From NCBI GenBank assembly GCA_947184155.2, contig CAMXCT020000309.1:62001-126000 (forward strand): a DNA stretch of 64,000 nucleotides, written 5' to 3'. The notes beneath the pieces are model-generated. The model did not search any database and had not been told where the DNA came from. It saw nothing but the letters and a program-made list of their open reading frames with translations. This DNA comes from Cladocopium goreaui (lineage: Eukaryota; Sar; Dinophyceae; Suessiales; Symbiodiniaceae). The position numbers and the translations under genes were made by a program. Shown here in pieces: positions 6,516 to 59,740 of the stretch (the first letter of the stretch is position 1; every line of letters starts with the position of its first letter).

Positions 6516-6539
6516 AAGTAAAATCGCACTTTTACCTCA

Positions 6540-10534: not shown

Positions 10535-10580
10535 TACATAGATAGATAGATGGATGGATGGATAGATAGATAGATAGATG

Positions 10581-10611
<31 letters not shown>

Positions 10612-10892: not shown

Positions 10893-10942
<50 letters not shown>

Positions 10943-32824: not shown

Positions 32825-32882
32825 GCTGACGGTCAGTGGCTTCCAAGCAGCCAGCAGGACCAAGGGAAAGCGCAAGAGATTT

Positions 32883-32898
32883 CTGAGCTATAATGGCT
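32883..32898 (-). promoter_or_regulatory. Relict spliced-leader-like motif, gene 1
   Basis: Minus strand reads AGCCATTATAGCTCAG, 13 of the 15 core bases of the dinoflagellate spliced leader (AGCCATTTTGGCTCAAG), 58 bases before the ATG. Its final AG is also a plausible trans-splice acceptor. Confidence 0.55.
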
Positions 32899-33472
32899 TT
32901 TGCAAAGTCCCGAGAAATTGCATTGAACTGCATTGCTTGATATTGCTTGATATATTGCTTGATATTGAGATATTGCTTGTGGCCGGAAAAAATTGCAAGA
33001 AATATGACCCCTCTGGTAGATCCCCTACGCACATGCATCATCCAACACGCTGTGATATCTGTCACGTTGGTATGTTGCGAACAGGCACGTCCAAACCCAA
33101 CTCCAAAGCGACAGTTGATTTGAAACGCTAACAGCACTCGGGAGTAGCACCAGTCTCGAGTATACAGGGTGACAGTGGATGAAAGAAAATGAAACATTAT
33201 GAAAAACCATATAGGCCAGCAACATTTTTTTTTGCCAGGGCCTCTCCAGGGTTTGCCCTCATTGTGCCCATGTTCATTCACGGGCTGGCACGCTTCCCAA
33301 ACGTTTGCATGGGGAAAAAAACGACAATGTGAAGATTGATTCCAAGAACCAACCATGCAGCAATGAATTCTGCTGTGTCAGCTGCATTTCAGCATCTGGC
33401 ACGATCTGCCCACCTACTGAAATAGGCGGCAAATCCTAGAAGCCTTCACGGCTCTCAATTTACCAATTTACC
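32899..33472. other. Array spacer between genes 1 and 2
   Basis: Contains ATATTGCTTG direct repeats (32935-32990), a GGAAAAAA block, a conserved block at 33045-33125 and GGGAGTAGCACCAGTCTCGA. Promoter of gene 1 and 3' region of gene 2 must share this stretch. Frames in the conserved block differ between copies by 1- and 13-bp gaps, so it is not coding. It is nearly identical to the spacer after gene 3 (38892-39465). Confidence 0.6.
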
Positions 33473-35806: not shown

Positions 35807-35864
35807 GCTGACGGTCAGTGGCTTCCAAGCAGCCAGCAGGACCAAGGGAAAGCGCAAGAGATTT

Positions 35865-35880
35865 CTGAGCTATAATGGCT
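35865..35880 (-). promoter_or_regulatory. Relict spliced-leader-like motif, gene 2
   Basis: Same 16 bases as upstream of gene 1, 58 bases before the inferred ATG. Confidence 0.55.
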
Positions 35881-36474
35881 TTTGCAAAGTCCCGAGAAGT
35901 TGCATTGAACTGCATTGCTTGATATTGCTTGATATATTGCGTGATATTGAGATATTGCTTGTGGCCGGAAAAAATGGCAAGACATATGACCCCTCTGGCT
36001 AGATCCCTACACACATGCATCATCCAGCACGCTTGTGATATCTGTCACGTTGGTATGTTGCGAACAGGCACGTCCAAACCCAATGTCCCGCCTGCACTCC
36101 AAAGCGACAGTTGATTTGAAACGCTAACAGCACCCGGGAGTAGCACCAGTCTCCAGTATACAGGGTGACAGTGGATGAAAGAAAATGACACATATATTGA
36201 ACAATCACGGAACATTCTGAAAAACCAAGGGATACCCTGTAGGCCTCTCCAGGGTTTGCCCTCATTGTGCCCATGTTCATTCACGGGCTGGCACACTTCC
36301 CAAACGTTTGCATGGGAAAAAAAACGACAATGTGAAGATTGATTCCAAGAACCAACCAGCAGCAATGAATTCTGATGTGTCAGCTGCATTTCAGCATCTG
36401 GCACGATCTGCCCACCTCCTGAAATAGGCGGCAAATCCTAGAAGCCTTCACGGCTCTCAATTTACCAATTTACC

Positions 36475-38817: not shown

Positions 38818-38875
38818 GCTGACGGTCAGTGGCTTCCAAGCAGCCAGCAGGACCAAGGGAAAGCGCAAGAGATTT

Positions 38876-38891
38876 CTGAGCTATAATGGCT
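38876..38891 (-). promoter_or_regulatory. Relict spliced-leader-like motif, gene 3
   Basis: Identical to the gene 1 motif and position. Confidence 0.55.
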
Positions 38892-39465
38892 TTTGCAAAG
38901 TCCCGAGAAATTGCATTGAACTGCATTGCTTGATATTGCTTGATATATTGCTTGATATTGAGATATTGCTTGTGGCCGGAAAAAATTGCAAGAAATATGA
39001 CCCCTCTGGTAGATCCCCTACGCACATGCATCATCCAACACGCTGTGATATCTGTCACGTTGGTATGTTGCGAACAGGCACGTCCAAACCCAACTCCAAA
39101 GCGACAGTTGATTTGAAACGCTAACAGCACTCGGGAGTAGCACCAGTCTCGAGTATACAGGGTGACAGTGGATGAAAGAAAATGAAACATTATGAAAAAC
39201 CATATAGGCCAGCAACATTTTTTTTTGCCAGGGCCTCTCCAGGGTTTGCCCTCATTGTGCCCATGTTCATTCACGGGCTGGCACGCTTCCCAAACGTTTG
39301 CATGGGGAAAAAAACGACAATGTGAAGATTGATTCCAAGAACCAACCATGCAGCAATGAATTCTGCTGTGTCAGCTGCATTTCAGCATCTGGCACGATCT
39401 GCCCACCTACTGAAATAGGCGGCAAATCCTAGAAGCCTTCACGGCTCTCAATTTACCAATTTACC

Positions 39466-41848
39466 CTAGCATTGATATGGCCAGGCAGCGCGCGGTTTCT
39501 CCTCGCCCATGAGGTTCAAGAGAGTCTCCATGTCTGCCTCTGTGTTGCCTGGCTTGGGAACATCGATCACCTTCTTGAGCTGCTCCAAACCTCATCTCTC
39601 AAAAAAAAAAAAAGATTGCCGCATTTGATTCCAACTTTCCTCACAGGTTCTGGCATCTCTTTCCTCTCCTCTCCAATTCCTCCAAGCGGCGAGGGGGAAT
39701 GCCTGCCACTGGATCATAGCCTGGGGAATTCCACAATTTTGCGACCTGCTGTTGAGCCTTGGGTGTCTTCAAGAAATGGCCGTAGCGGCAAGCCGCGTGC
39801 ACCGCTGCGCCATAGGGTGCAATTGCGGCTGCGCCGGTAGTGATGGCAGCAATGGAACCGGCGCAAAGTGCATTGATATCCAAAAAGTCCTGAAGAAAAA
39901 ACACGTGAGGATCTATCTGAAGATCTAGGATGACCTTGCAGCATTTCGGGGACTCTTTGGACTGCGTCAAGGTCAACAGTGAGCGCTTCAAGTGCAGGGT
40001 GTCCATTTGTGTTTTGAACATGTTGAACATGACGCACTTCCATGTCAGCAAAGCATGTTTTGCCTATAATTATTCACAAATGCTTGATATTCTAGGTGCA
40101 ACATGGTGCAACTGCAGGCCACCTGCTGGCCACCTGCTGGCCGCCTGCTGGCCGCCTGCTGGCTGCCTGCTGCCCAGTCGGTCCTGGCAGTGAAGCACAA
40201 TGAGATTGATGAAGGTAACAACCTGACCGATGTAGGCCACAGCACCACCGATGTCGACGGTGCAAAGTGCTTCTGGGATGCCCTTGAGCACATTCATGGG
40301 GACGCGGAAAGTGCTTGCCTTGCACTTGTTCACATTCACGGCCTTGTTGATGGCAAGTCCCATGTTTGCGATGTTGGCTGCCACCATGCCCACATCCACA
40401 CCACACTGCACACCGTTGCCGACTGGACCTTCTCCGATCAACAAACGTCGGCCATCCCGGACGGTCTGATCACCCAGGACGCTGATCTTCGTGGTGGTCA
40501 ATTGTGGCGGAGTTCCGGTACATGTGGCCGCACCCAAAGAAGCTCCAGCTGCAATCTCCCCCAATCCTGACACCAAGCCGGTGATGCCTGCAGAGCAAAT
40601 GGCGCCCACGTTGATGCTCAAGGCACAATTGGAAGCTGCCAAGGCCAGCTTGGTAGCAAGGTTTCCAACCCAAGCACCCAGGATGGCACCGTTCACCTGG
40701 CAAGCCAACTCAGACTCACCATCACGAGGTGGAGGGCAAGTGCGAATGATGGCATTGATGTCATCACCCATGCCAACTGCTGAGACAAATGCCTCTAAGA
40801 TGTTGAAGATCGACACATTCTTGCCTTCCAGCGAGCAGGCTCTTTTGCTTTTGGCGGAATCCTTTCACCTTTCCTGGTTGATGAGCCACATCCGAAAGAA
40901 AACAAACAAAAATGGTACCATCAAACCAATTTGTTTGGATGAAACATCACCAAAAGATGCGAAGCAAACTCCCCCCCCAAAAAAAAACAAAATAGTAGTC
41001 CTTCCATGTCCCTACCCTACTGTTCATGGTGACTATTGAAGTTAACTCATTTTCTCGGTGGTATTTGTGTTTCCCTTTCGGACCAGCGTCGGATGGTCGT
41101 CAGCGTGTCCAACTTGCGGATGTGGTGCTTCTCCCACTGGTCCCGCACCTTATGGCCCGCCTTCACCATGGTCTTCATGATCATCTCATCAGCCAACGTC
41201 TGGTTCTTCTGTGTGGCCTGGGCAGAACATAGGGCGGGTGAAGATGGACAAAAAATCAAAGGAGAAGAATTCAATGAACGCATGACATATTCTGAAATGC
41301 AAATTGCCATAAGTGACATGTCGCCTTAAGAATTAGTACTGTAATTCTCAAGTTCCAGCGGTTCCAGTATATACATCATTAATATGGATGTAAATTAAAC
41401 GCAGCAGCTCGTGCCTGAATGAGCTTTTGACTCGTGGTGCGGACGGCAGCGTCCAAATCCAACGCAGACTTTCCTTGCAAGGCCCCAAGGTTGCTGCAGC
41501 TGCGGCTGAAGCCATTCGTGGACAGAGCAAAAATGCCAACACAAACGACCATAGCCTTGGATGGCTGCCATCCAGCAAGCCAATACAAAATAGAACATAT
41601 TTGAACATTTCTCCTAATATTCTAGTATATTCCCCACTTCTGGTGGATCGACGACCAATGGGGAAAAAAGGTAGAAATAATATAGAGTAAAATAATGTAA
41701 AACATAATGGTAACATAATCAGCTAGTCCATGTCAATCCAAGTAGCAGCTGCCACTGCTAGAACCATCTTCTTCAACAGGGACCGCTTCGTTTGGAACGA
41801 TTGGTCCTCAACGTCGCTCACAACGTTCACCCTGTCGAAATCGGACAT
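39466..41848 (-). pseudogene. Array gene 4, frameshifted copy
   Basis: Exons 41848-41747, 41555-41403, 41217-41084, 40824-40184, 39889-39466. Exon 4 is 641 instead of 637 bp owing to an extra ATCG near 40810-40813, just after its start. Exon 5 is 424 instead of 405 bp because 39590-39675 is replaced by diverged sequence that includes a run of 13 A. Both changes break the frame, so the C-x24-C body cannot be made as in the other copies unless splicing differs. The scrambled stretch could also be an assembly or consensus error. Gly replaces Asp in the third segment (NVGAIC). Confidence 0.6.
39590..39675. other. Scrambled 86-bp segment in exon 5 of gene 4
   Basis: The flanks match the other copies base for base. 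The interior contains an A13 run, and recognisable but indel-rich remnants (TTGCCGCA, TTTGATTCCAACTTTCC). Confidence 0.7.
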
Positions 41849-41906
41849 GCTGACGGTCAGTGGCTTCCAAGCAGCCAGCAGGACCAAGGGAAAGCACAAG
41901 AGATTT

Positions 41907-41922
41907 CTGAGCTATAATGGCT
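41907..41922 (-). promoter_or_regulatory. Relict spliced-leader-like motif, gene 4
   Basis: AGCCATTATAGCTCAG on the minus strand. The preceding bases are TTTGAAGA instead of TTTGCAAA, as in genes 6 and 7. Confidence 0.55.
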
Positions 41923-42507
41923 TCTTCAAAGTCCCGAGAAATTGCATTGAACTGCATTGCCTGATATTGCTTGATACATTGCGTGATATTGAGATATTGC
42001 TTGTGGCCGGAAAAAATGCAAGAAATATGACCCCTCTGGTAGATCCCCTACACACATGCATCATCCAGCACGCTTGTGATATCTGTCACTTTGGTATGTT
42101 GCGAACAGGCACGTCCAAACCCAATGTCCCGCCTGCACTCCAAAGCGACAGTTGATTTGAAACGCTAACAGCACTCGGGAGTAGCACCAGTCTCCAGTAT
42201 ACAGGGTGACGGTGGATGAAAGAAAATGACACATATATTGAACAATCACGGAACATTCTGAAAAACCAAGGAATACCCTGTAGGCCTCTCCAGCGTTTGC
42301 CCTCATTCTGCCCATGTTCATTCACGGGCTGGCACACTTCCCAAATGTTTGCATGGGGAAAAAAACGACAATGTGAAGATTGATTCCAAGAACCAACCAG
42401 CAGCAATGAATTCTGATGTGTCAGCTGCATTTCAGCATCTGGCACGATCTGCCCACCTACTGAAATAGGCGGCAAATCCTAGAAGCCTTCACGGCTCTCA
42501 ATTTACC

Positions 42508-44859
42508 CTAGCATTGATATGGCCAGGCAGCGCGCGGTTTCTCCTCGCCCATGAGGTTCAAGAGAGTCTCCATGTCTGCCTCTGTGTTGCCTGGCTTGGG
42601 AACATCGATCACCTTCTTGAGCTGCTCCAAACTCTCGCGATTGGCCGCAATTTGATCCAAACTTTCCTTCAAAGGTTTCTGGGCAGTCTCTTCCTCCAAT
42701 TCCTCCAAGCGGCGAGGAGGAATGCCTGCCACTGGATCATAGCCTGGGGAATTCCACAATTTTGCGACCTGCTGTTGAGCCTTGGGTGTCTTCAAGAAAT
42801 GGCCGTAGCGGCAAGCCGCGTGCACCGCTGCGCCATAGGGTGCAATTGCGGCTGCGCCGGTAGTGATGGCAGCAATGGAACCGGCGCAAAGTGCATTGAT
42901 ATCCAAAAAGTCCTGAAGAAAAAACACGTGAGGATCTTTCTGAAGATCTAGGATGACCTTGCAGCATTTCGGGGACTCTTTGACTGCGTCAGGTCAACAG
43001 TGAGCGCTTCAAGTGCAGGGTGTCCATTTGTGTTTTGAACATGTTGAACATGACGCACTTCCATGTCAGCAAAGCATGTTTTGCCTATAATTATTCACAA
43101 ATGCTTGATATTCTAGGTGCAACATGGGCAACTGCAGGCCACCTGCTGGCCGCCTGCTGGCTGCCTGCTGCCCAGTCGGTCCTGGCAGTGAAGCACAATG
43201 AGATTGATGAAGGTAACAACCTGACCGATGTAGGCCACAGCACCACCGATGTCGACGGTGCAAAGTGCTTCTGGGATGCCCTTGAGCACATTCATGGGGA
43301 CGCGGAAAGTGCTTGCCTTGCACTTGTTCACATTCACGGCCTTGTTGATGGCAAGTCCCATGTTTGCGATGTTGGCTGCCACCATGCCCACATCCACACC
43401 ACACTGCACACCGTTGCCGACTGGACCTTCTCCGATCAACAAACGTCGGCCATCCCGGGCGGTCTGATCACCCAGGACGCTGATCTTCGTGGTGGTCAAT
43501 TGTGGCGGAGTTCCGGTACATGTGGCCGCACCCAAAGAAGCTCCAGCTGCAATCTCCCCCAATCCTGACACCAAGCCGGTGATGCCTGCAGAGCAAATGG
43601 CGTCCACGTTGATGCTCAAGGCACAATTGGAAGCTGCCAAGGCCAGCTTGGTAGCAAGGTTTCCAACCCAAGCACCCAGGATGGCACCGTTCACCTGGCA
43701 AGCCAACTCAGACTCACCATCACGAGGTGGAGGGCAAGTGCGAATGATGGCATTGATGTCATCACCCATGCCAACTGCTGAGACAAATGCCTCTAAGATG
43801 TTGAAGATCGACACATTCTTGCCTTCCAGCGAGCAGGGTCTTTTGCTTTTGGCGGAATCCTTTCACCTTTCCTGGTTGATGAGCCACATCCGAAAGAAAA
43901 CAAATAAACATGGGACCATCAACCCAATTGGTTTGGATGAAACATCACCAAAAGATGCGAAGCAAACTCCCCCCCCCCAAAAAAACAAAATAGTAGTCCT
44001 TCCATGTCCCTACCCTATTGTTCATGGTGACTATTGAAGTTAACTCATTTTCTCGGTGGTATTTGTGTTTCCCTTTCGGACCAGCGTCGGATGGTCGTCA
44101 GCGTGTCCAACTTGCGGATGTGGTGCTTCTCCCACTGGTCCCGCACCTTATGGCCCGCCTTCACCATGGTCTTCATGATCATCTCATCAGCCAACGTCTG
44201 GTTCTTCTGTGTGGCCTGGGCAAAACATAGGGCGGGTGAAGATGGACAAAAAATCAAAGGAGAAGAATTCAATGAACGCATGACATATTCCGAAATGCAA
44301 ATTTAAAATACCATAATTGACATGTCGCCTTAAGATTTACTGTAGTACTGTAATTCTCAAGTTCCAGCGGTTCCAGTATATATACATCATTAATATGGAT
44401 GTAAACCGTTTGCAGAAGCTCGTGCCTGAATGAGCTTTTGACTCGTGGTGCGGACGGCAGCGTCCAAATCCAACGCAGACTTTCCTTGCAAGGCCACAAG
44501 GTTGCTGCAGCTGCGGCTGAAGCCATTCGTCGACAGAGCAAAAATGCCAACACAGACTACCATAGCCTTGGATGGCTGCCATCCAGCAAGCCAATACAAA
44601 ATAGAACATACGTGAAAATATTTCTGAATATTCTAGTAACTTCCCCACTTCTGGTGGATCGACGACCGATTGGGAAAAAAGGTAGAAATAATATAGAGTA
44701 AAATAATGTAAAACATAATGGTAACATAATCAGCTAGTCCATGTCAATCCAAGTAGCAGCTGCCACTGCTAGAACCATCTTCTTCAACAGGGACCGCTTC
44801 GTTTGGAACGATTGGTCCTCAACGTCGCTCACAACGTTCACCCTGTCGAAATCGGACAT
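42508..44859 (-). pseudogene. Array gene 5, copy with a 4-bp insertion
   Basis: Exons 44859-44758, 44566-44414, 44215-44082, 43822-43182, 42912-42508. All are standard except exon 4, which carries the same extra ATCG as gene 4 (near 43808). Joined with the usual acceptor, the frame is lost four codons into exon 4, and no alternative AG restores it without a stop. The rest of exon 4 stays open with one change (VRDGRR to ARDGRR), so the lesion is young, or a non-standard acceptor is used. The intronic minisatellite has three units. Confidence 0.55.
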
Positions 44860-44917
44860 GCTGACGGTCAGTGGCTTCCAAGCAGCCAGCAGGACCAAGG
44901 GAAAGCACAAGAGATTT

Positions 44918-44933
44918 CTGAGCTATAATGGCT
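44918..44933 (-). promoter_or_regulatory. Relict spliced-leader-like motif, gene 5
   Basis: Same 16 bases, 58 bases before the inferred ATG. Confidence 0.55.
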
Positions 44934-45407
44934 TTTGCAAAGTCCCGAGAAGTTGCATTAAACTGCATTGCTTGATATTGCTTGATATATTGCTTGATAT
45001 TGAGATATTGCTTGTGGCCGGAAAAAATGGCAAGAAATATGACCCCTCTGGTAGATCCCCTACGCCCTACGCACATGCATCATCCAACACGCTTGTGATA
45101 TCTGTCACGTTGGTATGTTGCGAACAGGCACGTCCAAACCCAATGTCCCGCCTGCACTCCAGGTCGACAGGTGATTTGAGACGCTAACAACGCCGGGAGT
45201 ACATTAGCAGTCTCGAGTATCTAGGGTGAAAATGGATGAAACATCATGTCTCAAACCATCACGAAAGAATATGAAAAACTACCTGAGGCCATTAACCATG
45301 CGGCAATGAATTCTGATGTGTCAGCTGCATTTCAGCATCTGGCACGATCTGCCCACCTACTGAAAAAGGCGGCAAATTCAAGAAGCCGTCACGGCTCTCA
45401 ATGCACC

Positions 45408-48400
45408 CTAGCATTCAAATGGCCAGGCAGCGCGCGGTTTCTCTTCGCCCATGAGGTTCAAGAGAGTCTCCATGTCTGCCTCTGTGTTGCCTGGCTTGGG
45501 AACATCGATCACCTTCTTGAGCTGCTCCAAACTCTTGCGATTGGCCGCAATTTGATCCAAACTTTCCTTCAAAGGTTTCTGGGCAGTCTCTTCCTCCAAT
45601 TCCTCCAAGCGGCGAGGGGGAATGCCTGCCACTGGATCATAGCCTGGGGAATTCCACAATTTTGCGACCTGCTGTTGAGCCTTGGGTGTCTTCAAGAAAT
45701 GGCCGTAGCGGCAAGCCGCGTGCACCGCTGCGCCATAGGGTGCAATTGCGGCTGCGCCGGTAGTGATGGCAGCAATGGAACCGGCGCAAAGTGCATTGAT
45801 ATCCAAAAAGTCCTGAAGAAAAAACACGTGAGGATCTATCTGAAGATCTAGGATGACCTTGCAGCATTTCGGGGACTCTTTGGACTGCGTCAAGGTCAAC
45901 AGTGAGCGCTTCAAGTGCAGGGTGTCCATTTGTGTTTTGAACATGTTGAACATGACGCATTTCCATGTCAGCAAAGCATGTTTTGACTATAATTATTCAC
46001 AAATGCTGGATATTCTAGGTGCAACATGGTGCAACTGCAGGCCACCTGCTGGCCGCCTGCTGACTGCCTGCTGCCCAGTCGGTCCTGGCAGTGAAGCACA
46101 ATGAGATTGATGAAGGTAACAACCTGACCGATGTAGGCCACAGCACCACCGATGTCGACGGTGCAAAGTGCTTCTGGGATGCCCTTGAGCACATTCATGG
46201 GGACGCGGAAAGTGCTTGCCTTGCACTTGTTCACATTCACGGCCTTGTTGATGGCAAGTCCCATGTTTGCGATGTTGGCTGCCACCATGCCCACATCCAC
46301 ACCACACTGCACACCGTTGCCGACTGGACCTTCTCCGATCAACAAACGTCGGCCATCCCGGACGGTCTGATCACCCAGGACGCTGATCTTCGTGGTGGTC
46401 AATTGTGGCGGAGTTCCGGTACATGTGGCCGCACCCAAAGAAGCTCCAGCTGCAATCTCCCCCAATCCTGACACCAAGCCGGTGATGCCTGCAGAGCAAA
46501 TGGCGTCCACGTTGATGCTCAAGGCACAATTGGAAGCTGCCAAGGCCAGCTTGGTAGCAAGGTTTCCAACCCAAGCACCCAGGATGGCACCGTTCACCTG
46601 GCAAGCCAACTCAGACTCACCATCACGAGGTGGAGGGCAAGTGCGAATGATGGCATTGATGTCATCACCCATGCCAACTGCTGAGACAAATGCCTCTAAG
46701 ATGTTGAAGACACATTCTTGCCTTCCAGCGAGCAGGGTCTTTTGCTTTTGGCGGAATCCTTTCACCTTTCCTGGTTGATGAGCCACATCCGAAAGAAAAC
46801 AAACAAAAATGGGACCATCAACCCAATTGGTTTGGATGAAACATCACCAAAAGATGCGAAGCAAACTCCCCCCCCAAAAAAATAGTAGTCCTTCCATGTC
46901 CCTACCCTATTGTTCATGGTGACTATTGAAGTTAACTCATTTTCTCGGTGGTATTTGTGTTTCCCTTTCGGACCAGCGTCGGATGGTCGTCAGCGTGTCC
47001 AACTTGCGGATGTGGTGCTTCTCCCACTGGTCCCGCACTTTATGGCCCGCCTTCACCATGGTCTTCATGATCATCTCATCAGCCAACGTCTGGTTCTTCT
47101 GTGTGGCCTGGGCAAAACATACGGCTGGTGAAGATGGACACAAAAATCAAAGGAAAAAAATCAAGGAACGCATGACATGTTCTGAAATGCAACTTGCCAT
47201 AATTGACACGTCGCCTTAAGATTTACTGTAATTCTCAAGTTCCAGCGGTTCCAGTATATAATACATCATTAATATGGATGTAAACCGTTTGCAGAAGCTC
47301 GTGCCTGAATGAGCTTTTGACTCGTGGTGCGGACGGCCTCGTCCAAATCCAACCCAGACTTTCCCTGCAAGGCTCCAAGGTTGCTGCAGCTGCGGCTGAA
47401 ACCATTCGTCGACAGAGCAAAAATGCCAACACATACGACCATAGCCTTGGATGGCTGCCATCCAGCGAGCTAATGCAAAATAGAACATATTTGAACATAT
47501 CTCTGAATGTTCTAGTAACTTCCCCCCTTCTGGTGGATCGACGACCATGAATGGGAAAAACAAGTAGAACTAGAAAAGCGTAAAAAGGTAAAATCATGTA
47601 AAATAAAATCATAGGAAGTTTAGAAGACAAATTTCCGACAATATGGACAGATGAAAAAGCAGAGGTGGGAAGAGTCAGAGAAGAGAAGAGAAGAGAAGAG
47701 AAGAGAAGAAGAAAGAAGATCAGAGAAAAGAAAGAATCAGAAGAAAGAAGATGCAGGTGCCCGAAAACGTAGCAACGTCGTGAAACACTGTGTTTTTTTC
47801 AAAGATTTGTGCCTCCAGAAGGTCGAAAAGTAGGCTCACTAAAGCGGCGGGTGCGGAGCCATCTGGCCAGATGAGAGATGAAAAGTTGCACGCTGTTGTG
47901 GCGCTAAGTTCGGAGGCAAAAGTGTAAGAAACTGGCGGTCTCGGAGCACTTTTTTGAGGTTAGGATGTGGTTTTGCGTGGCAGGCGCAAGGGATTCGGCA
48001 CCTTGCCAAAAGGCAGCAAAGCGTGACGGTTCTGTATATAACAGTTTCAAACACGTTGGCAGGCATGGCACAGTTGAAGAAGATCTGCAAAGATGCATTT
48101 CGGCGCAGTACAAGAGGCATGTTCATCAGACATGTTAGGAGGTCCGGGCGCTGAGAAGGGTTGCGTTTTGGAGCATCAGATTTTCAGGTTTGCTAAGATG
48201 ATTTTGTGTGACAGGTGCAGCACTTCGTATGTCCTGGCCTCACTTTCTCGTGGCAGGCGCAATACTTTCGGCAGATGGACAGGAAAAATCGGAAAACGCA
48301 TTGATACGAGCCGTCAGCGCTGCACTGAACTTTCCATTTTTGAAGGAAGTCTCGCAGAAGTGCTTTGTTTTTGATGTTGCCAACGTCCAAACTTGAGGAA

Positions 48401-50674
48401 GTCTCGCAGAATCGCTTCGCTTTTGATGTTGTCAAGGTCAAAAAGTGAGGACGTCTCGCAGAATTGCTGCGTTTTCAAGCTTGCAGATAAACAGAAAAAA
48501 GATAGACAGAGAGATGGAGAGTTAGACTGACACATAGATGGACAGATAGAAAGATAAACAGATAGACAGATAGATATATAGACAACTACAACAACACTAC
48601 ACTACGCTACATTACAAATACAAGCTCAACACGTCTAATTTCCCAAAATATAGGATGCCTTATTTAAAAAACCATTAAGCAACAGCAGCCAAACCATTTC
48701 TCAAAGGGGTAGTCCATGAGCAACCCTGATCCTCAATAGTATGTTTGTTGTGGGGGTCCTCTATTGTGTCCAGCTGTTGTCTAGGGTGAAAATTTTCAAA
48801 ATAATTACCTCCTGTCCTTTTCCAATACTTTTCTCTTTTTTACTTTCTTAGCTCCATTCTTTTGGAATTCTCAAAATTCCCAATTTCCCAAAATATAGGA
48901 TGCCTTACTACAACACCATTAAAAGGGGGTATATAGTCCATGAGCAACCCTGATCCTCAATAGTATGTTTGTTGTGGGGGCCCTCTATTGTCCAGCTGTT
49001 GTCTGAGGTGAAAATTTTCAAAATAATTCTCCCCTTTCCTTTTCCTTTCCTTTGCTATAGCTTTTGTCTTTTACTTAGTTCAATTCTCCTGGCGTCCCCT
49101 CCTTTAATTCTATGGTGTTTCTATGGGATTTTGGCAAAATTTCTCCGGAAATTCTATGTAAGTTCTATGGTGTTTCTATGATATCCTATATATGGTGTTT
49201 CTAAAGATGTGTCTATGGTAGTTCTGTGGGATTCCTATGGGGTTTCCAAAGGATGTCTATGGGATTTCCTTTGGATTCCTATGGGGTTTCTGCGGTATTT
49301 CTATGATATTTCTATGGGATTTCTTTGGGATGTCCATGATATTTCTATTACTGTGGGATTAACAAAAGCAAATCTATGATATTTCTAGAGGATTTCTTTG
49401 GGAATTCTATGGGATGTCCATGAAGTTTCTTTGGAATTTCTATGGTGGTTCTATGGTATTTCCCTGTGGGGTTTCCATGGAATTTATATGATATGTCTAT
49501 AGAATTACTATGAGATTTCTATGGGGTGTCAATGGTATTTCGATGTGATTCCTATTGGGTTTCAAAAGGATGTAGGATTTCTATGGGATTTGTTTGGGGT
49601 TCCCATTGTATTTTTTTTTGGGTTTTCATGAAATTTCTATGGGGTTACTATGGGATTTCTATTGGATTTCTGTGTGATTTCTACGGGATTTCCATGGTGG
49701 TTCTTTAGGATCTCTCTTGGATTTCAAAGGAATGTCTATGGGTTTTCCATTGGATTTCGATCAGATTTCTATGGGGTCTTTGATTTTTCTATGGGGTTTC
49801 TCTGTGATTTCTGTGAGATTTCCATAAAATTTATATTGGATTTCTATGGGATTCCTATGGCATTCCTATGGAACTTCCATGATGTTTCTATTGGATTTCT
49901 ATTGGAGTTCCATGATGTTTCTATGAGATTCTTGTGGGATTTCTTTGTGGTTACTATGCTATTTCCATGTTATTTCTATGATCGTTCTATGGGATTTCTG
50001 TGGGGCTCCTATGGGATTTCCATGATATTTCTATGGGGTGTCAATTGAAAGCAAATAGAAATTCAATTGAACAAACATTCAAACTAAATTGAAATCAATT
50101 CAAAACCAATTGAAAATCAATTGAAATCAATTGAAAGTAAATTGAAATCTAGCAAAATCAATTGATCAAACATTATTCAGTACCCGGCACTTACAGTAAA
50201 AAAACACCCTAAAGTGGATCCAAAATTGTTTTGGGGGGGGCGATACTAGTCAGGATCCAACATTACAACAACTACAGCTACATCTACAACTACCACTGGA
50301 CTACGGCTACAACTACCAGTACACTACAACTGCAACTGCAGCTGCAACTGCAGCTGCAACTGCATTCAGCAGTTGTGGGTGATGTGACCACTGCAACCAC
50401 TCCAAAAAGCACAACTCCAACCACCTTTCTTTGCATCAGTGGATTTGCCCTGCCATCCATGCATCACAACAACTCACCTCTCCTATAGTGTCCTATCATT
50501 GAAACTTCCGCCGCTGCCTTGCTGGTAATATACTAGTAACATAATCAGCTGGTCCATGCTAATCCAGGTAGCTGCTGCCACTGCTAGAACCATCTTCTTC
50601 AACAGGGACCGCTTCGTTTGGAACGATTGGTCCTCAACGTCGCTCACAACGTTCACCCTGTCGAAATCGGACAT
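45408..50674 (-). CDS. Array gene 6, C-x24-C repeat protein with a 3.1-kb first intron
   Basis: Exons 50674-50573, 47445-47293, 47107-46974, 46721-46085, 45812-45408, all of standard length and open. The first intron is 47446-50572 because the composite element occupies about 47607-50535; in other copies it is about 200 bp. The protein ends AWPFEC rather than AWPYQC and has Lys for Arg at RKSLEQ. Exon 2 has small changes (GKSGLDLDEAV, ending in Ser). The splice sites inferred for intron 1 are both present, so the gene may still be expressed if the insertion is spliced out. Confidence 0.6.
48600..49080. repeat. Two diverged copies of a block of about 290 bp
   Basis: 48640-48830 and 48885-49035 share AAAATATAGGATGCCTTA, GTCCATGAGCAACCCTGATC and TTGTCT.GGGTGAAAATTTT. 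No coding potential seen. Confidence 0.7.
49085..50045. repeat. TTTCTATGGGA-type minisatellite, about 0.95 kb
   Basis: Imperfect units of about 10-12 bp (TTTCTATGGGA, TTCCATGATA). The open plus-strand frames rich in Phe, Tyr, Gly and Ile are a by-product. Confidence 0.9.
50046..50425. repeat. AATTGAAATC repeat followed by CAACTACAACTGCAACTG repeat
   Basis: 50050-50170 repeats AATTGAAATCAATTGAAA, which is partly self-complementary. 50260-50400 repeats ACAACTACAAC and GCAACTGCA, the reverse complement of the type at 56050-56770 in copy III. Confidence 0.85.
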
Positions 50675-50732
50675 GCTGACGGTCAGTGGCTTCCAAGCAG
50701 CCAGCAGGACCAAGGGAAAGCACAAGAGATTT

Positions 50733-50748
50733 CTGAGCTATAATGGCT
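50733..50748 (-). promoter_or_regulatory. Relict spliced-leader-like motif, gene 6
   Basis: Same 16 bases, still 58 bases before exon 1 and therefore upstream of the intron insertion. Confidence 0.55.
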
Positions 50749-51819
50749 TCTTCAAAGTCCCGAGAAAACTGCATGAACTGCATTGCCTGATATTGCTTGA
50801 TACATTGCTTGACATATTGCTTGAAATTGCTTCTGGCCGGAAAAAATGGGAAGAAATATGACCCCTCTGGTAGATCCCCTACGCACAGCATCATCCAACA
50901 CGCTTGTGATATCTGTCACGTTGGTATGTTGCGAACAGGCACATGTCCGAACCCAATGTCCCGCCTGCACTCCAAGTCGACAAGTGATTTGAGACGCTAG
51001 CAGCGCCCGGGAGTAGCAGTCTAGAGTCTAGAGTTTATATAGGGTGAAAACGGATGAACAATTACGAAACATATAGGGTAATCACGAAACAATATACAAA
51101 ACAAAGGAATACCTGAGGCCATTAACCATGCGGCAATGAATTCTGATGTGTCAGCTGCATTTCAGCATCTGGCACGATCTGCCCACCTACTGAAAAAGGC
51201 GGCAAATTCAAGAAGCCGTCACGGCTCTCAATGCACCCTAGCATTCAAATGGCCAGGCAGCGCGCGGTTTCTCTTCGCCCATGAGGTTCAAGAGAGTCTC
51301 CATGTCTGCCTCTGTGTTGCCTGGCTTGGGAACATCGATCACCTTCTTGAGCTGCTCCAAACTCTTGCGATTGGCCGCAATTTGATCCAAACTTTCCTTC
51401 AAAGGTTTCTGGGCAGTCTCTTCCTCCAATTCCTCCAAGCGGCGAGGGGGAATGCCTGCCACTGGATCATAGCCTGGGGAATTCCACAATTTTGCGACCT
51501 GCTGTTGAGCCTTGGGTGTCTTCAAGAAATGGCCGTAGCGGCAAGCCGCGTGCACCGCTGCGCCATAGGGTGCAATTGCGGCTGCGCCGGTAGTGATGGC
51601 AGCAATGGAACCGGCGCAAAGTGCATTGATATCCAAAAAGTCCTGAAGAAAAAACACGTGAGGATCTATCTGAAGATCTAGGGTGACCTTGCAGCATTTC
51701 GGGGACTCTTTGCAGGGTGTCCATTTCGGTGTTTTGAACATGAACGCACTTCCATGTCAGCAAAGCATGTTTTGACTACAATTATTCACAAATGCTGGAT
51801 ATTTAGGTGCAACATGGTG

Positions 51820-51910
51820 CAACTGCAGGCCACCTGCTGGCCACCTGCTGGCGGCCTGCTGGCGGCCTGCTGGCTGCCTGCTGGCTGCCTGCTGGCTGCC
51901 TGCTGCCCAG
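51820..51910 (-). repeat. Longest 11-bp intronic minisatellite (gene 7)
   Basis: Seven units of CCACCTGCTGG / CGGCCTGCTGG / CTGCCTGCTGG, compared with three to five in genes 1-6. Confidence 0.85.
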
Positions 51911-52619
51911 TCGGTCCTGGCAGTGAAGCACAATGAGATTGATGAAGGTAACAACCTGACCGATGTAGGCCACAGCACCACCGATGTCGACGGTGCAAAG
52001 TGCTTCTGGGATGCCCTTGAGCACATTCATGGGGACGCGGAAAGTGCTTGCCTTGCACTTGTTCACATTCACGGCCTTGTTGATGGCAAGTCCCATGTTT
52101 GCAATGTTGGCTGCCACCATGCCCACATCCACACCACACTGCACACCGTTGCCGACTGGACCTTCTCCGATCAACAAACGTCGGCCATCCCGGACGGTCT
52201 GATCACCCAGGACGCTGATCTTCGTGGTGGTCAATTGTGGCGGAGTTCCGGTACATGTGGCAGCACCCAAAGAAGCTCCAGCTGCAATCTCCCCCAATCC
52301 TGACACCAAGCCGGTGATGCCTGCAGAGCAAATGGCGTCCACGTTGATGCTCAAGGCACAATTGGAAGCTGCCAAGGCCAGCTTGGTAGCAAGGTTTCCA
52401 ACCCAAGCACCCAGGATGGCACCGTTCACCTGGCAAGCCAACTCAGACTCACCATCACGAGGTGGAGGGCAAGTGCGAATGATGGCATTGATGTCATCAC
52501 CCATGCCAACTGCTGAGACAAATGCCTCCAAGATGTTGAAAACACATTCTTGCCTTCCAGCGAGGAGGCCCTTTTGCTTTTGGCGGAATCCTTTCACCTT
52601 TCCTGGTTGATGAGCAACA

Positions 52620-53160
52620 TCCGAAAGAAAACAAACAAAACACTAGACGACGGATGGCCCGAGAGCGTAGAGGAGCAAATTGCTCAGGTGAAAGTAAAAA
52701 CATAGTGATGTGTAATAAGTATCTAAGAAGTATGTGGTGTAAGTAGAAGAAAAGACAATGATAGCGGGATATAGCATTGGGAAATGTAGCAGCTGATTAT
52801 CAAAAAGATGAAGGAGGCAAGATGTCAAAATGTTAAGATGAAAACTGAAGAAAGGCATTGAAACATTTTGTACTGATTCAGAAAAATTAAAGGACCGGAT
52901 AACCCCACAAGTCAACTTCTTAGAATACTGAGCTTCAAAGGTTGTAGCGGGGACGGGGAAGGAAGGAAAGACAAAGGAGGTGGTGAAAGACTGTGTGTGA
53001 AAGTATGTGAAAAGATAGTATGCATATACGTACGTACGTACGTACGTACGTACGTACTGTATGTATGTATGTATGCATGCATGCATGCATGCATGTATGT
53101 ATGTATGTATGTGTGACAAAGTTGGGTGTGAAAGATGGTGTGTGTGAAAGTGACGTGAGT
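52620..53160. other. Satellite insertion in intron 3 of gene 7, left part
   Basis: Unique AT-rich DNA to about 53020, then CGTACGTACGTACGTACGTA (self-complementary) followed by TGTATGTATG and GCATGCATGC tracts to about 53112. No gene. Confidence 0.6.
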
Positions 53161-53189
53161 GCGCGACAGTGCAGACATTTTTTTGTGAG

Positions 53190-53875
53190 GTTGTGAGGTT
53201 GTGCCACGCCTGCCACGCAAAGTGCCGCGGCGTCCCGGGCGTCACGGGGAACCAAGCCAGTCCAAGCGCGCCACCCAGTGCCATGAGTGCCACGCCTGCC
53301 ACGCGAAACGATGGTGGATGTGAGATTGTGCCACGCCTGCCACGCAAAACTAAGGTGGATGTGAGGTTGTGCCACGCCTGCCACGCAAAGTGCCGCGGCG
53401 TCACGGGCGTCACGGGCGAGTCCAAGCGCGCCACCCAGTGCCATGAGTGCCACGCCTGCCACGCGAAACGATGGTGGATGTGAGATTGCGCCACACCTGT
53501 TACGTGAAACGAAGGTGGATGTGAGGTTGTGCCATGCCACGCAAAGTGCCGCGGCGTCACGGGCGTCACGGGCGAGTCCAAGCGCGCCACCCAGTGCCAT
53601 GAGTGCCACGCCTGCCACGCGAAACGATGGTGGATGTGAGATTGTGCCACGCCTGCCACGTGAAACGAAGGTGGATGTGAGGTTGTGCCACGCCTGCTAC
53701 GCCTGCCACGCAAAGTGCCGCGGCGTCCCGGGCGTCACGGGCGACCAAGCCAGTCCAAGCGCGCCACCCAGTGCCATGAGTGCCACGCCTGCCACGCGAA
53801 ACGATGGTGGATGTGAGATTGTGCCACGCCTGCCACGCAAAACGAAGGTGGATGTGAGGTTGTGCCTGAGAGAGG
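53190..53875. repeat. GC-rich higher-order repeat, about 165 bp, four copies
   Basis: Built from GTGCCACGCCTGCCACGC, AAAGTGCCGCGGCGTC and CGATGGTGGATGTGAGATTG. Long frames are open on both strands (356 codons on the minus strand), but the protein merely repeats and lacks start or splice support. Confidence 0.85.
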
Positions 53876-54480
53876 GTATGTGACAGTGAAGTTATAGTAT
53901 GTGACAGATGGTATGTGACAAAGTTGTGTGTGTGATTGTGTGTGAATTATTGTGTGTGAAGTTATTGTATGTGAGAGATGGTATGTGTGTAAAGTTATTG
54001 TATGTCATGTGTGTGAAGTTATTGTATGTTAAGTTTGTGTGTGAAGTTGCTGTATGTGAGAGATGGTATGTGACAAAGTTGTGTGTTAAGTTTGTGTGTG
54101 AAGTTATTGTATGTGAGAGATAGTTTATAGTATGTGACAAAGTGGTGTGTGTGTGTGAATTATGGTGTGTGAAGTTTTTGTATGTTAAGTTTGTGTGTGT
54201 GAAGCTATTGTATGTGAGAGTTGTGTGTGTGTGTGTGTAAAGTTATTGTATGTCATGTGTGTGTGAAGTTATTGTATGTTAAGTTTGTGTGTGAAGTTAT
54301 TGTATGTGAGAGATGGTATGTGTGTAAAGTTATTGTATGTCATGTGTGTGAAGTTATTGTATGTTAAGTTTGTGTGTGAAGTTATTGTATGTGAGAGACG
54401 GTATGTGACAAAGATGTGTTTTAAGTTTGTGTGTTAAGTTTGTGTGTGAAGTTATTGTATGTGAGAGATAGTTGTGTGTG
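53876..54480. repeat. TGTGTGAAGTTATTGTATGT minisatellite
   Basis: Irregular repeats of GTGTGTGAAGTTATTGTATG with GAGAGATGGTATGTGACAAA inserts and short GT runs. Confidence 0.9.
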
Positions 54481-54684
54481 AGTGTGTGGAGGCGGGAGGA
54501 GGCGGAGGCGGCGGCGGAGCAGACCCGGGATACAGAATCAAAAACAAGAACCCCACACAAAGATGTGGGGAACAACAAAAAGTTAAACAATTGCAAGGGC
54601 GAGGCTGCACGAAGAAGACAGGCTAGTAGGAAGAGAGCGAGGGAAAGAAAGGAAATATGGAGAAGATGTAAGATGTGAAGATGT
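54481..54684. other. Short non-repetitive interval in the intron insertion
   Basis: GGAGGCGGAGGCGGCGG purine-rich start, then unique DNA. No gene supported. Confidence 0.4.
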
Positions 54685-55010
54685 AACGCAGACACTTTCA
54701 CACACAAACGCTTTTACACACAGAAGCTCTTACTCAGAAACGTTTTGACACGCAGACGCCTCTACATACACAGACGCCTTTACATACACAGACGCCTTTA
54801 CACACAGAAGTTTTTTCACACACTCACACGCTTTTACACACAAACGTTTTCACACAGACACTTTTACACACAGATCGCCTTTACACACAAACGCTTTTAC
54901 ACGCAGATGTCTTTACACATCTTCACACACACACACGCAACTGCTTTTACACACACAGACACCTCTACACACAGAAGCTTTGACAAACAAACGCCTTTAC
55001 ACAGAAAACC
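54685..55010. repeat. TTTTACACACAGACGC minisatellite, third locus
   Basis: About 20 imperfect 16-bp units, same family as 5880-6515 and 27020-27262. Confidence 0.9.
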
Positions 55011-55859
55011 ACTCACCTCATCTTGATAACACTTTCGGGGCTCAACCTGTTTGTGCAAATATGCAATGAACATGTCCATCACCCCATCATACCACCTTTA
55101 GGGCCCAACTTTTTTTTGCAAATCTTATTGCTAATAAGTATTATGGAAAACGCCGCTGACCTCATCTTTTTAATACCTTCGGGGCTGAACCTTTTTTGCG
55201 TAAACTTTACTTTTGAACAACTCTTTTTTTTCTCGGTGGTATTTTTGTTTCCCTTTCGGACTAGTGTCGGATGGTCGTCAGCGTGTCCAACTTGCGGATG
55301 TGGTGCTTCTCCCACTGGTCCCGCACCTTATGACCCGCCTTCACCATGGTCTTCATGATCATCTCATCAGCCAACGTCTGGTTCTTCTGTGTGGCCTGGG
55401 CAAAATATAGGGTTGATGAGGATGGAAGAAAAATCAAAGGAGAAAAATTCAATGAACGCATGAAATATTCTGAAATGCAAATTAACAAAAAATAACATGC
55501 GTAACATGTTAATTCTCAAGTTCGAGCGGTTCCAGTATATACATCATGAATATGGATGTAAACCGTTTGCAGCAGGTCGTGCCTGAATGAGCTTTTGACT
55601 CGTGGTGCGGACGGCCTCGTCCAAATCCAACCCAGACTTTCCTTGCAAGGCTCCAAGGTTGCTGCAGCTGCGGCTGAAGCCATTCGTCGACAGAGCAAAA
55701 ATGCCAAGACAGACGACCATAGCCTCGGATGTCTGCCCTCCAGCAAGCCAACACAAAATTAAACATAGTTAATCGTATCACTGGTGGATCCACGCTCAAT
55801 GGGGAAAAGAAGTGGAACTAAAATATAAAAACAAATAATGTAAAATAAAATAGCAACAC

Positions 55860-56240
55860 AATATAGTACCAGTAGTACCGCGCAAGTCGGTGGCGAAAGT
55901 TTCAAAGATAGGAAACTATAGGAGTGTTGTGATACAATGATGGCAGGGCGAATCTACTGATGGACCGAAAGGCGGTTGTGAATTTTAGAGTGGTTGCAGT
56001 GGTCACAACACCCACACCTGCAAGATGTAGTGTGGTGTAGCGAAGTGCAATGTAATGGTAGTTGTAGTTGTAGTGTAGTTGATGTTGTTGAAGCTGTAAT
56101 GTTGTAGTTGTAGTTGTGGTTGTAGTTGTAGTTGTAGTGTGGTTGAGGTGTAGTTGAAGTTGTAGTTGTAGTAATTGTAGCAGTCGTCGCCGTAGTAGTG
56201 GTAGTAGTAGTAGTAGCAGCAGCAGCAGTAGTAGTAGTAC

Positions 56241-56275
<35 letters not shown>

Positions 56276-56395
56276 GTAGTACTAGTAGTAGTAGTAGTAG
56301 TAGTAGAAGTAGAAGTAGTAGTAGTAGTAGAAGAAGTAGTGGTAGTGGTAGTGGTAGTGGTAGTGGTAGTGGTAGTGGTAGTGGTAGTGGTAGTG

Positions 56396-56429
<34 letters not shown>

Positions 56430-57870
56430 CAGTTGTAGTAGCAGTTGTAGCTGCAATTCTAGTGGGAGTGTAGTTGTAGTTGTAGTGTAGTGCAGTTGTA
56501 GTTGTAGTTGTAGTCGCAGTGGCAGTCGTACTCGTAGTGGTGTAGTGTATAGTGTAGTGTAGTGTAGTGGTAACTGTTGTTGTTGTAGTGTATAGTTGAA
56601 GTTGTAGTTGCAGTTGTAGTTGCAGTTGTAGTGTAGTTGTAATTGTAATTGTAGTTTACTGGTGGTGGTAGTTGTAGTTGTAGTGTAGTGGTAGCTGTAG
56701 TTGGAGTAGTTGTTTGCTGAAGTGTAGTTGAAGTTGTAGTTGTAGTGTAGTCTGGTTGCAGTGGTCTATCCTATCTGTCTACCCGGTCTACCTATCTACC
56801 AATCTGTCTGTCTGCAAGCTTGAAACGCAGCAATTCTGCGAGACTTCCTCAATTTTTGAACTTGACAACATCAAAAACGCAGCAATTCTGCGAGACTTCC
56901 GCAATTTTTGAACTTGACAACGCCAAAAACGACGCAATTCTGCGAGACTTCGAAGTTGACAACATCAAATACGAAGCAATTCTGCGAGACTTCCTTCAAA
57001 CATGTTGAGTGCAGAGCTGACGGCCTCGTACCATTGCGCTTTGCGATGTTTCCATTCCATCTGTCTAAAGTACTGCGTCTGCCATGAAAAAGTGAGGGCA
57101 GGTCATACGAAGTGCTGCACCTGTCACGCAAAATCATCTGACCAAACTTGAAGATCTGACGCTCCAAAATGCAACCCTCTCAGGAAATCTGCGCCCTGAC
57201 CTCCTAACATGTCTCTTGTACTGCGGCTGCCACGCGAAATGCATCTTTGCAGATCCTCTTCAAATGTCCCACACTTGCCAACGTTTTTGAAACTGCTGCG
57301 AAGCCGTCAGGTTTGGCTCACTTTTGGGAAGGTGTAGAATCTCTTGCGCCTGCCACGCAAAACCACATACTTTCAAAAGTGGTCCTAACCCCGTCAGATT
57401 TGAACACGACATGTGCTTCGCGCCACAACCGCGTGCACTTTACATCTCAATTCTTAAAAGCGCTCGAAATCTGAGGTGCTTTTACACTTTTGGCTTCCAA
57501 ATGTGCATCGCGCCACAATGGCGTGCGCTTTTCAACAGCTCAACTTCGACAAGTGCTCCAGAGTGCTCCAAACATGTGGTGTTTTTTGAGCATTCTGACT
57601 TCGAAATGTGCTTCGCGCCACAGCGGCGTGCATTTTTTCATCTCTCACTTGCCAGATGGCTCCGCACCCGCCGCTTTAGCGAGCCCACTTTTCGATCCTC
57701 CGGAGCCACAAATCATTGGAAAAACACAGACTTTTGCGACTTTGCTACCTTTTCGCACACCTCCATCTTCTTTCTTCTCTTCTCTTCTCTTCTCTTCTCT
57801 GACTCTTCCCATCTCTGCTTTTTCATCCGTCCATATTGTCGGAAGTTTGACTTCTAAGCTTCCTTCGAAC
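55860..57870 (-). mobile_element. Composite interspersed element, copy III, inverted, in intron 1 of gene 7
   Basis: Reading the minus strand from 57870, the left block starts GGAAGCTTAGAAGTCAAAC and continues TTCCGACAATATGGACGG, with GAAGAGAAGAGAAG and GTCGAAAAGTGGGCTCGC. 57640-56815 has the 100-bp degenerate repeats (GTGGCGCGAAG, GTCTCGCAGAATTG). 56815-56765 is GATAGACA-type sequence. 56770-55990 is AGT/TTGTAG simple sequence. 55985-55860 is the right block with TTGAAACTTTCGCC and TACTACTGGTA. ATATAGTA flanks both ends (near 55861 and 57874) and may be a target-site duplication. Confidence 0.7.
56040..56770. repeat. GTAGTTGTAGTTGTAGT and AGT trinucleotide repeats
   Basis: Pentamer and hexamer GTTGTAG repeats surround a long AGT/AGC/GGT trinucleotide run at 56200-56450. 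Open frames of pure Val or Leu are by-products. Confidence 0.95.
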
Positions 57871-58067
57871 ATATAGTAACATATAGGTCCGTGCTAATCC
57901 AGGTAGCAGCTGCCACTGCTAGAACCATCTTCTTTAACAGGGACCGCTTCGTTTGGAACGATTGGTCCTCAACGTCGCTCGCAGCATTCACCCTGTTGAA
58001 GGCGGACATGCTGACGGTCGATAGCTTCCAAGCAGCCAACAGGATCGAGGAAAAGCGCAAAAGATTT

Positions 58068-58083
58068 CTGAGCTATAATGGCT
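58068..58083 (-). promoter_or_regulatory. Relict spliced-leader-like motif, gene 7
   Basis: The 16 bases are unchanged although surrounding sequence of this copy is the most diverged; still 58 bases before the ATG. Confidence 0.55.
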
Positions 58084-58339
58084 TCTTCAAATTCCCGAGG
58101 AACTGCATTGAACTGCATTGCTTGATATATTGCGTGATATATTTCTTGATATTGCTTGTGGCCGGAAAAAATGGCAAAAAATATGGTCCCTCTGGTAGAT
58201 TCCTACCCACATGCATCATCCATCACGCTTGTGATATCTGTCCTGTTGGTGTGTTGCGAACAGGCACGTCCAAACCCAATGTCCCGCCTGCACTCCAAAG
58301 CGACAGGTGACTTCAAACGCTAACAGCGCCCCAACGCCT

Positions 58340-59740
58340 GGGGGTAAAGAAACCAGAAGGAAAAGATCCACACGCGCAAGCCTGGGCACTGGGGAATGGT
58401 GGTACAAGTGGTACCGGATCGATGCAGGCTGCTTCAAGGCCCGTCAATCCCAAATGGTAAATTAATTGGAGTGTCAAATTCATGCCAAAAAGTCCTGGGG
58501 AATTGGGTAGACTGCAATGACTGCAAATAAAACTGTTGCGTCATGCTGCAAGACCCACCATCAACCCACAGGGATAGGCAGTGTAGATACCGGAGGTCAG
58601 CATCCACAGGTCAGTCCAGCCACATACTGGTCATATCCAAGATGAGCTCATCAATCCGCAGAGCAGCGCCCGGGTCAACCTGTATGCCAAACAATTCCAT
58701 CACATCCAAGTGCCAGTCATGATAATGATGATACCATCATGATATTATCGATTCATTCCATGTATTACTCTATGAAGTATAATTTTGATATCGGCATATC
58801 GTCTTAGGAACACGCTCAGAAATTTGTTGCAATTTGAGTAAAACAATAGTATACCATCCCAAATTTGACCATAAATGAATGGTATAAACCATCAGAATAT
58901 GGGGGTTTATGATTGTTTTACTCACATTGCGGAGAAATCCACCATCCACGACCCTTTTCCCCGGTTTCGCACCCCTGCAGCGGTAACAGATGTGGCAAAG
59001 CGCAAGGCTGCAGTTGGAAGGGAACCTTCACCACCGTGCAACACCAAGACCTGGCATCGGATGCATCGGCCAATCAAAATGACGGAAACTCATGACGCAT
59101 GGCTCCCCCACCGGTGACATTTCTTAACATTTTGTTTTTAATGCAGGAGACCTACCCATGCCTCTTCAACCTCCTTTGAAGCACTCCATATTCACATCAT
59201 TTCATCAAAATTCATCAAGCAAAGATATATCCAGATTATATCCACAATTATCAATTTCAACCATTATCAGTAACATGATGTAACATGTCTCAATCCCAGG
59301 CGCTCGTTTGCCATAGACCACATCCCTGGCGAAGTGCTCGTGGATTTCCAAGGGTGACACATAGTGGTTGGACCAATGCGTCCGATCCAAGGCGAGGGAC
59401 TCAGAGGACAGGGCTCCGAAATGGCATGGCGAAGTGGGGGGGCATTTCAAGCACATATATTACATCTCATCATATATATATATATCTGATTGGTGGTATA
59501 CCTATTCCTGTCAAAAATCTTAGTCAGTTGGGAAGGATTATCCCATATATTATGGAAAATAAAAAATGTTCCAAACCACCAACCATATAAATATATATAT
59601 ATATAATTATATATATATACCTAGAGCTACAAAGACCCACGAAATTGAAGGCCCAGTCAAAAAAATGGAGAAAAAACACGTTCTTCATTTTCGGTGTTTT
59701 TATCTAATGCTCAGACGGAACAAGTACACCCGTGAAATCA
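58340..59740. other. Region right of the array, no supportable gene
   Basis: Array similarity ends near 58330. Short exon-like frames are present, for example 58920-59100 on the plus strand (HHPRPFSPVSHPCSGNRC) and 59330-59420, but no splice pairs or domains are recognised. 59470-59490 and 59580-59625 are TATA-rich tracts. Confidence 0.35.

Follow-up and report, generated by a model that had tools for sequence, protein, structure and literature searches.

Canonical Helitrons start with TC, end in CTGG with a hairpin before the 3′ end, and sit at an A/T junction. HINE/DINE-1 elements are non-autonomous Helentrons, of which Cg_HINE of Crassostrea gigas (PMC4067079) and HINE-Mo of a mite (PMC7492417) are examples, and helitrons have been reported from Symbiodinium genomes (PMC9087856). 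Introners of Symbiodinium microadriaticum are described as having a 4-bp duplication, inverted ends, a 3′ splice site borne by the insert, and a GC 5′ splice site that comes from the duplication (PMC9860276). Here we describe a locus in a 64-kb stretch of DNA (the window; positions 62001–126000 of contig C309), and the genome that we searched is the 1.17-Gb assembly of 6,202 contigs. The window holds seven tandem paralogs, g1–g7, all on the minus strand (30333..58340), and intron 1 of g6 and of g7 each contains a copy, E6 and E7, of one element, the two copies pointing in opposite directions. We consider it probable that E6 and E7 arose through two independent insertions, on opposite strands, of a non-autonomous rolling-circle element into the same preferred AT-rich target. 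Two events are favored because the junction is reversed at a palindromic TA, because a preference for the target could be measured, and because no route is seen by which the element could have been inverted precisely at its ends.

Results

Two copies of one element at one intron site

Intron 1 is 191–202 bp long in g1–g5 and reaches the lengths given in Table 1 in g6 and g7, in agreement with the original prediction of about 200 bp in genes 1–5 and of a 2.9-kb and a 2.0-kb copy of one element in genes 6 and 7. The copies had also been described as mutually inverted, and this is what we observe: compared on opposite strands, E6 and E7 match in two main blocks, with E-values of 1e-65 and 4.5e-135. 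Both insertion points were said to lie in the same AT-rich stretch, and the cuts do fall there, around a single TA. On the empty site of g2, the E6 cut is at index 38|39, or at 38|42 if its last TGG belongs to the element, and the E7 cut is at 43|44, which places the cuts 5 or 2 bp apart and on either side of that TA. By eye, the host site consists of near-tandem 10-bp units, two in g1, g3, g4, and g5 and three in g2, and an alignment shifted by one unit is therefore possible. When the boundaries in gene 6 were scored against the empty sites, two splits tied for best (107), one of them with the left boundary A|TC, and both leave GGTAAT to the host on the right (TGGTAA in one case). For gene 7, the split with TC and CTGG as the ends scores 77 against a best of 79, and 8 of 2,730 splits score higher. 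The splice sites of intron 1 read as intact in both genes, so the earlier statement that both genes keep their splice sites holds for this intron at the level of sequence. Since each insert lies within the intron and leaves the splice signals untouched, it would be tolerated.

A third copy, E3, lies in the window outside the array. The original description calls for some correction: E6 has an additional satellite block of about 1.6 kb (at about 48.6–50.26 kb) that is unmatched by the other copies read, and E3 has a different core. The middle that E6 and E7 share occurs in many other copies in the genome, and E3 is without most of it. The 3′ end of E6 is about 10 nt shorter than that of the family, and its last TGG is possibly host DNA. 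Profiles of the ends gave three full matches to the window, plus two short ones within E7 and E3.

Ends and cores of the element family

A genome search with the left end of E6 gave 3,305 first-look candidates, of which the best 40 places were scored. With the left end of another family copy, 40 places matched at 95–100% among those scored, which points to a large family that includes nearly identical copies. As a sample we fetched 39 further loci and then 12 more left ends. The statistics on ends are based on 40 left and 32 right ends, after the near-duplicates L012, L017, L019, and L025 were dropped; the target model described below also dropped E6 and E7, a flank-control test dropped L011, L017, L019, L025, and E6, and a comparison of shared departures used all 44 copies.

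Both family ends are sharply bounded. The 5′ end is TCGAAGGAAGTTTAGAAGTCAAACTTCCG, and the 3′ end is GAAACTTCCGCC-ACCGC-CTTGT-GCGGT-ACTACTGG, followed by TA. The inverted repeat GGAAGTTT is subterminal at both ends, exact over 8 bp, and by eye extends to 11/13 in E3. At the 5′ end it is part of a palindrome, GGAAGTTT-7 nt-AAACTTCC, in which all 8 pairs are present in 29 of the 38 alignable copies and each pair (G-T allowed) is held in 35–38 of the 38. In the 3′ hairpin, ACCGC-CTTGT-GCGGT, each of the five pairs is held in 26–28 of 30 copies, 2 of the 32 being not alignable. The hairpin of E6 and E7 folds weakly, the fragments that were folded stopping short of the end.

CTGG is present by eye at 26 of the 32 right ends, those not counted being E6, L010, L020, L026, L034, and L041. 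The base after CTGG is T in 26 of 28 and the next is A in 25 of 28, among right ends that were chosen for a CTGG-like word and that include one chosen at the wrong place (L014) and one that is one base off (L033). The left ends were chosen by CGAAG-like words, which left 4 of 40 without a choice; the first base of the end, before the C, is T in 28, C in 7, and A in 1 of the remaining 36, and the base to its left is A in 28 of them. Copies in the first set are about 1.4 to 4.1 kb long, and their satellite cores vary. Among the 15 longest open frames listed, those that by eye fall within an element consist of simple repeats or of runs of N. At one locus (L027), two copies lie head to tail with a short spacer between them.

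Comparison with known rolling-circle elements

We read the element as a non-autonomous rolling-circle element of the Helitron/Helentron type, and as a proven member of neither group. Like canonical Helitrons, it has a 5′ TC, a 3′ CTRR in the form CTGG, a hairpin just before the 3′ end, an A on the left, and a T on the right. Unlike them, it has subterminal inverted repeats and a satellite core, its first base is T or C in the proportions given above, and the A after the right-hand T is nearly fixed. At least 145 matches to Helitron_like_N (Rep) are present in the genome, many within long open frames, as compared with 0 of 14 control genomes. The Rep/helicase of autonomous Helitrons would be the candidate enzyme for mobilizing the element. 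Of the element's two ends, CTGG (3′) would be linked to TA and TC (5′) to the AT-rich left flank, without a clean target duplication, and because TA is the same on both strands, one TA may take a copy in either direction.

The element also resembles HINE/DINE-1 as described in two reports (PMC4067079, PMC7492417). It shares with them a subterminal inverted repeat near both ends with a complement just inside the 5′ one, a 3′ palindrome, a core of microsatellite or tandem repeats, and insertion in both orientations, and we noticed no coding capacity in it, no family search of its frames having been made. It differs in that its repeat is exact over 8 bp rather than the 11–15 bp given for HINE/DINE-1, its 3′ repeat copy is 26 nt from the CTGG end as compared with 38–60 in HINE-Mo of the mite, TA follows its 3′ end, its ends are readable as canonical Helitron ends, and its host is dinoflagellate-like. 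If the T before CG (28 of 36) is given to the host, it forms a T/T target with the T after CTGG; if it is given to the element, the target reads as A/T. The flanks are rich in A and T together, not in T alone. We found no description of this family in the open-licence literature on helitrons in dinoflagellates and Symbiodiniaceae, most of which was surveyed superficially, and we found no open-licence literature on insertions and gene conversion in arrays. A pattern scan of viral contigs gave 0 matches.

Target preference

The flanks of family copies are 69–71% AT as compared with 57–58% nearby (36 left and 26 right flanks). A position model of the target, built on 34 left flanks and 23 right flanks with those of E6 and E7 excluded, placed the true site within the top 5% for 18 of 23 copies in leave-one-out trials. 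The AT-rich stretch of intron 1 makes up 1.9–2.4% of an array unit and receives 35% (g5) and 38% (g2) of the model weight, and the 17 bp around the E6 cut receive 12.1% (g5) and 7.6% (g2). Among predicted cuts, the E6 cut placed before TAAC ranks 3/5720 on g5 and 5/5970 on g2, and the E7 cut ranks 20/5970 on g2. With so much of the weight on this stretch, a second insertion there is not surprising. The original prediction had offered either a target preference or one insertion followed by inversion, and the model speaks for the former.

Alternative readings

Several observations weigh against two rolling-circle insertions, and we take them together here. Some concern the cuts themselves. The E6 cut placed before TGG ranks only 20/5720 on g5 and 22/5970 on g2, and the E7 cut ranks 66/5720 on g5. 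Joining E6 to its host with CTGG as the element end scores 95, as compared with 107 when the TGG is host DNA, and the base before the TC of E7 is T, not A.

Others concern divergence. The Kimura two-parameter (K2P) distance between E6 and E7 is 0.185 (0.154–0.219), which equals the 0.177 (0.142–0.215) of the noncoding 5′ DNA of g6 and g7, as one shared insertion predicts. Such an insertion would have occurred in the ancestor of g6 and g7, followed by inversion of the element in one of them and by loss or homogenizing replacement in genes 1–5, and we regard this course of events as unlikely. It is consistent with a gene tree that separates {g6,g7} from g1–g5 with support of 0.99 and 0.999, but g7 is a long branch, and g6 is closer to g1 (K2P 0.114) and g5 (0.100) than to g7, so a single insertion also needs a loss in g1–g5. 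Taken by part, E6 and E7 differ by 0.152 in the ends and 0.207 in the middle, and their ends differ from those of E3 by 0.186 (E6) and 0.171 (E7). The divergence of the element is neutral, in that it does not separate one insertion from two.

Relationships among copies bear on the same question. Counted by joint departures from the majority, the nearest copy to E6 is L010 (14 sites, 0.64), which lies on the same contig at a distance of 58 kb; with E7, E6 shares only 6 sites (0.19), a level equal to that of E6 with E3. At the 15 sites that mark E6 with L010, L024, or L018, E7 has the same letter at 4, the majority letter at 5, and either a gap or some other letter at the remaining 6. Three of four IQ-TREE trees, built from overlapping data, group E6 with L010 (support 97/86, 91/86, and 89/79), and this tells against a single insertion; the approximately unbiased test made with these three gave p values of 0.224, 0.117, and 0.0775 for E6 and E7 as sisters. 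The largest tree, to which 12 relatives of E7 were added, instead joins E6 and E7 weakly (74/53) and places E6, E7, L010, and L024 in one clade (100/99). Membership in one small clade, with sister status not rejected, favors a single insertion. We find the phylogeny not decisive, since it neither demonstrates nor rejects that E6 and E7 are sisters. As a weak further indication, the neighbor lists of E6 and E7, taken from the best 40 of 3,305 and the best 40 of 2,688 candidates, name 39 other places each and have none in common.

The inversion itself would require breaks exactly at both element ends, without an inverted repeat at the outer ends to mediate them. The outer 26 nt of the 3′ end are flipped in E7 relative to E6, and the GGAAGTTT repeat lies inside the ends, so recombination between its copies would leave those 26 nt unflipped. 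Inversion in place is not known from rolling-circle elements. Insertion followed by inversion, the other course that had been proposed, is thus unsupported.

The remaining observations concern the sequence on either side of the copies. Across 27 copies, left and right flanks are more alike than permutation of the pairs would give (p 3e-4; a set of 14 copies gave p 4e-4), and the true similarity score of 1.98 (n 26) exceeds the right-shifted controls (mean 0.34, maximum 1.27), for which one offset fewer was allowed. Copy L012 shows a 9/11 near repeat at its junctions, and a degenerate target duplication is possible on these alignments. Such similarity would fit a DNA transposon that duplicates about 8–11 bp of its target, and genes 1–5 would then bear an excision footprint, AAACATAA-TGG-TAACATAA. 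By eye, TACTATAT is indeed found on both sides of E7, and the site in g1–g5 resembles a duplicate, 3 nt, and a second duplicate. However, left-shifted controls (mean 1.18, maximum 2.24) include some that exceed the true score, the outer ends are without a terminal inverted repeat, and the junctions of five short-branch copies (L015, L009, L036, L038, and L040) show no perfect repeat as long as 6 bp. The array site is near-tandem in its own right, and left flanks of the family are enriched in near-tandem repeats (p 0.033). We therefore consider a DNA transposon quite improbable.

Several candidate readings of the flanks were set aside or lost weight. We dropped the excision footprint in genes 1–5 because the site is a near-tandem repeat by itself, and an 8-bp duplication read from the junctions of E6, E7, and E3 was weakened but is still conceivable. 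The flank of E3 as a remnant of the array site did not go beyond dinucleotide shuffles (p about 0.2), and the direction of an 18-nt piece to the left of E7 was not significant.

That the inserts are an artefact of assembly is very hard to credit. Their satellite-rich interiors are difficult to assemble, but at both junctions the sequence lines up with the empty site of the paralogs, the two copies are about 16% different where they align, and the same ends recur in copies on many further contigs. Two independent rolling-circle insertions at one preferred target remain the reading that we prefer.

Origin of intron 1

Intron 1 itself has introner-like ends. In g1–g5 its layout is GCTA-CTTGGAT...ATCCAAG-GCTA, that is, a 4-bp duplication and 7-bp inverted ends, with the GC of the 5′ splice site in the GCTA duplication and the AG in the insert. 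In duplication, inverted ends, and splice-site placement, this is the pattern reported for the introners of S. microadriaticum (PMC9860276). Unlike those introners, intron 1 is not demonstrated to belong to a living family: as a whole-intron query of the genome it matched the array copies only (8 matches, 7 candidates), a search that diverged copies or shared ends alone would escape.

A query made of exon 2, intron 1, and exon 1 of gene 5 found related genes outside the array on contigs C24, C4840, C4654, C2702, and C540. In the paralog fragments from outside the array that we read (L060–L066), intron 1 is missing from 7 of 7, exon 1 abuts exon 2, and the join has a single GCTA in 5 and GCGA in 2. 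By eye, intron 2 is missing from all seven as well, so that retroposed, intron-free paralogs are a possible alternative to the gain of intron 1 in the array.

State of the gene array

The inferred 5′ splice sites of the array genes are GC and possibly also GA, which, together with the tandem layout, fits a dinoflagellate (compare PMC11453091). Exons 1–3 of g2, g5, g6, and g7 are open across the stretches translated. The frame of exon 4 is open in g2, g3, g6, and g7 and shifted in g1, g4, and g5, so the insert-bearing genes 6 and 7 are open there, unlike the frameshifted genes 1, 4, and 5; gene 4 also has a scrambled stretch within exon 5. A Pfam search with the exon 4–5 product of an array gene gave a single match, which was below its cut-off.

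Identity between g6 and g7 is 99% in the 3′ halves and 84% in the noncoding DNA of the 5′ halves, which suggests uneven homogenization of the array. The change in identity (within 45271–58340) falls near an insert in intron 3 of gene 7. This insert is satellite-rich and about 2.6 kb long (52640–55190), and part of it is similar to 5872–6504 and 27031–27263; a search of the window with the end profiles found no ends of the E6/E7 family in it. The end of exon 3 (55261–55269), likely the donor of intron 3, is CGACACTAG in gene 7 but CGACGCTGG in genes 2, 5, and 6. Unlike the splice sites of intron 1, the intron 3 donor of gene 7 may thus have changed.

Elsewhere in the window, four copies of a 300-bp repeat and a 95-bp satellite lie near its end (59747–62554; 62815–63984), and tandem arrays with units of 315, 121, and 72 bp are found at 3226–5396 and 6510–7010.

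Table 1. Positions of the array genes, introns, target stretch, and element copies in the window
Feature	Position	Strand	Remarks
Element copy E6	47609..50525	+	2,917 bp; 5′ TCATAGG..., 3′ ...CTGG
Element copy E7	55869..57868	-	2,000 bp; opposite orientation to E6
Element copy E3	9100..11227	+	2,128 bp; outside array, different core
11-bp satellite (TTCTATGGGAT)n in E6	49108..50047	.	
AT-rich near-tandem target stretch in element-free intron	44705..44735	.	E6-type cut ranks 3 or 20/5720
Element-free intron 1 of gene 5	44567..44757	-	191 bp
Intron 1 of gene 6	47447..50572	-	3,126 bp
Intron 1 of gene 7	55724..57908	-	2,185 bp
Gene g1	30333-33340	-	
Gene g2	33341-36345	-	
Gene g3	36346-39335	-	
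Gene g4	39336-42390	-	
Gene g5	42391-45270	-	
Gene g6	45271-51100	-	
Gene g7	51101-58340	-	

Discussion

The element family joins Helitron-type ends to Helentron-type subterminal repeats in a dinoflagellate-like genome. The array can be viewed as a natural experiment: a preferred target has been occupied twice, five neighboring paralogs are empty, and paralogs elsewhere in the genome lack the intron. It gives direct access to the target choice, end structure, and age of a rolling-circle family.

We tentatively suggest, as an idea that may well prove wrong, that an introner-born intron, through its AT-rich center, offers a ready landing site to another family, one of the rolling-circle kind. 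If so, the copies of a gene family would receive insertions again and again at one TA, whichever way the element points, and their introns would grow from about 0.2 kb to several kilobases with splicing unharmed. If this were general, introner-born introns would be the seeds of long satellite-rich introns in this lineage. The array thus points to a path, open to testing, by which introns made by introners could become long and filled with repeats.

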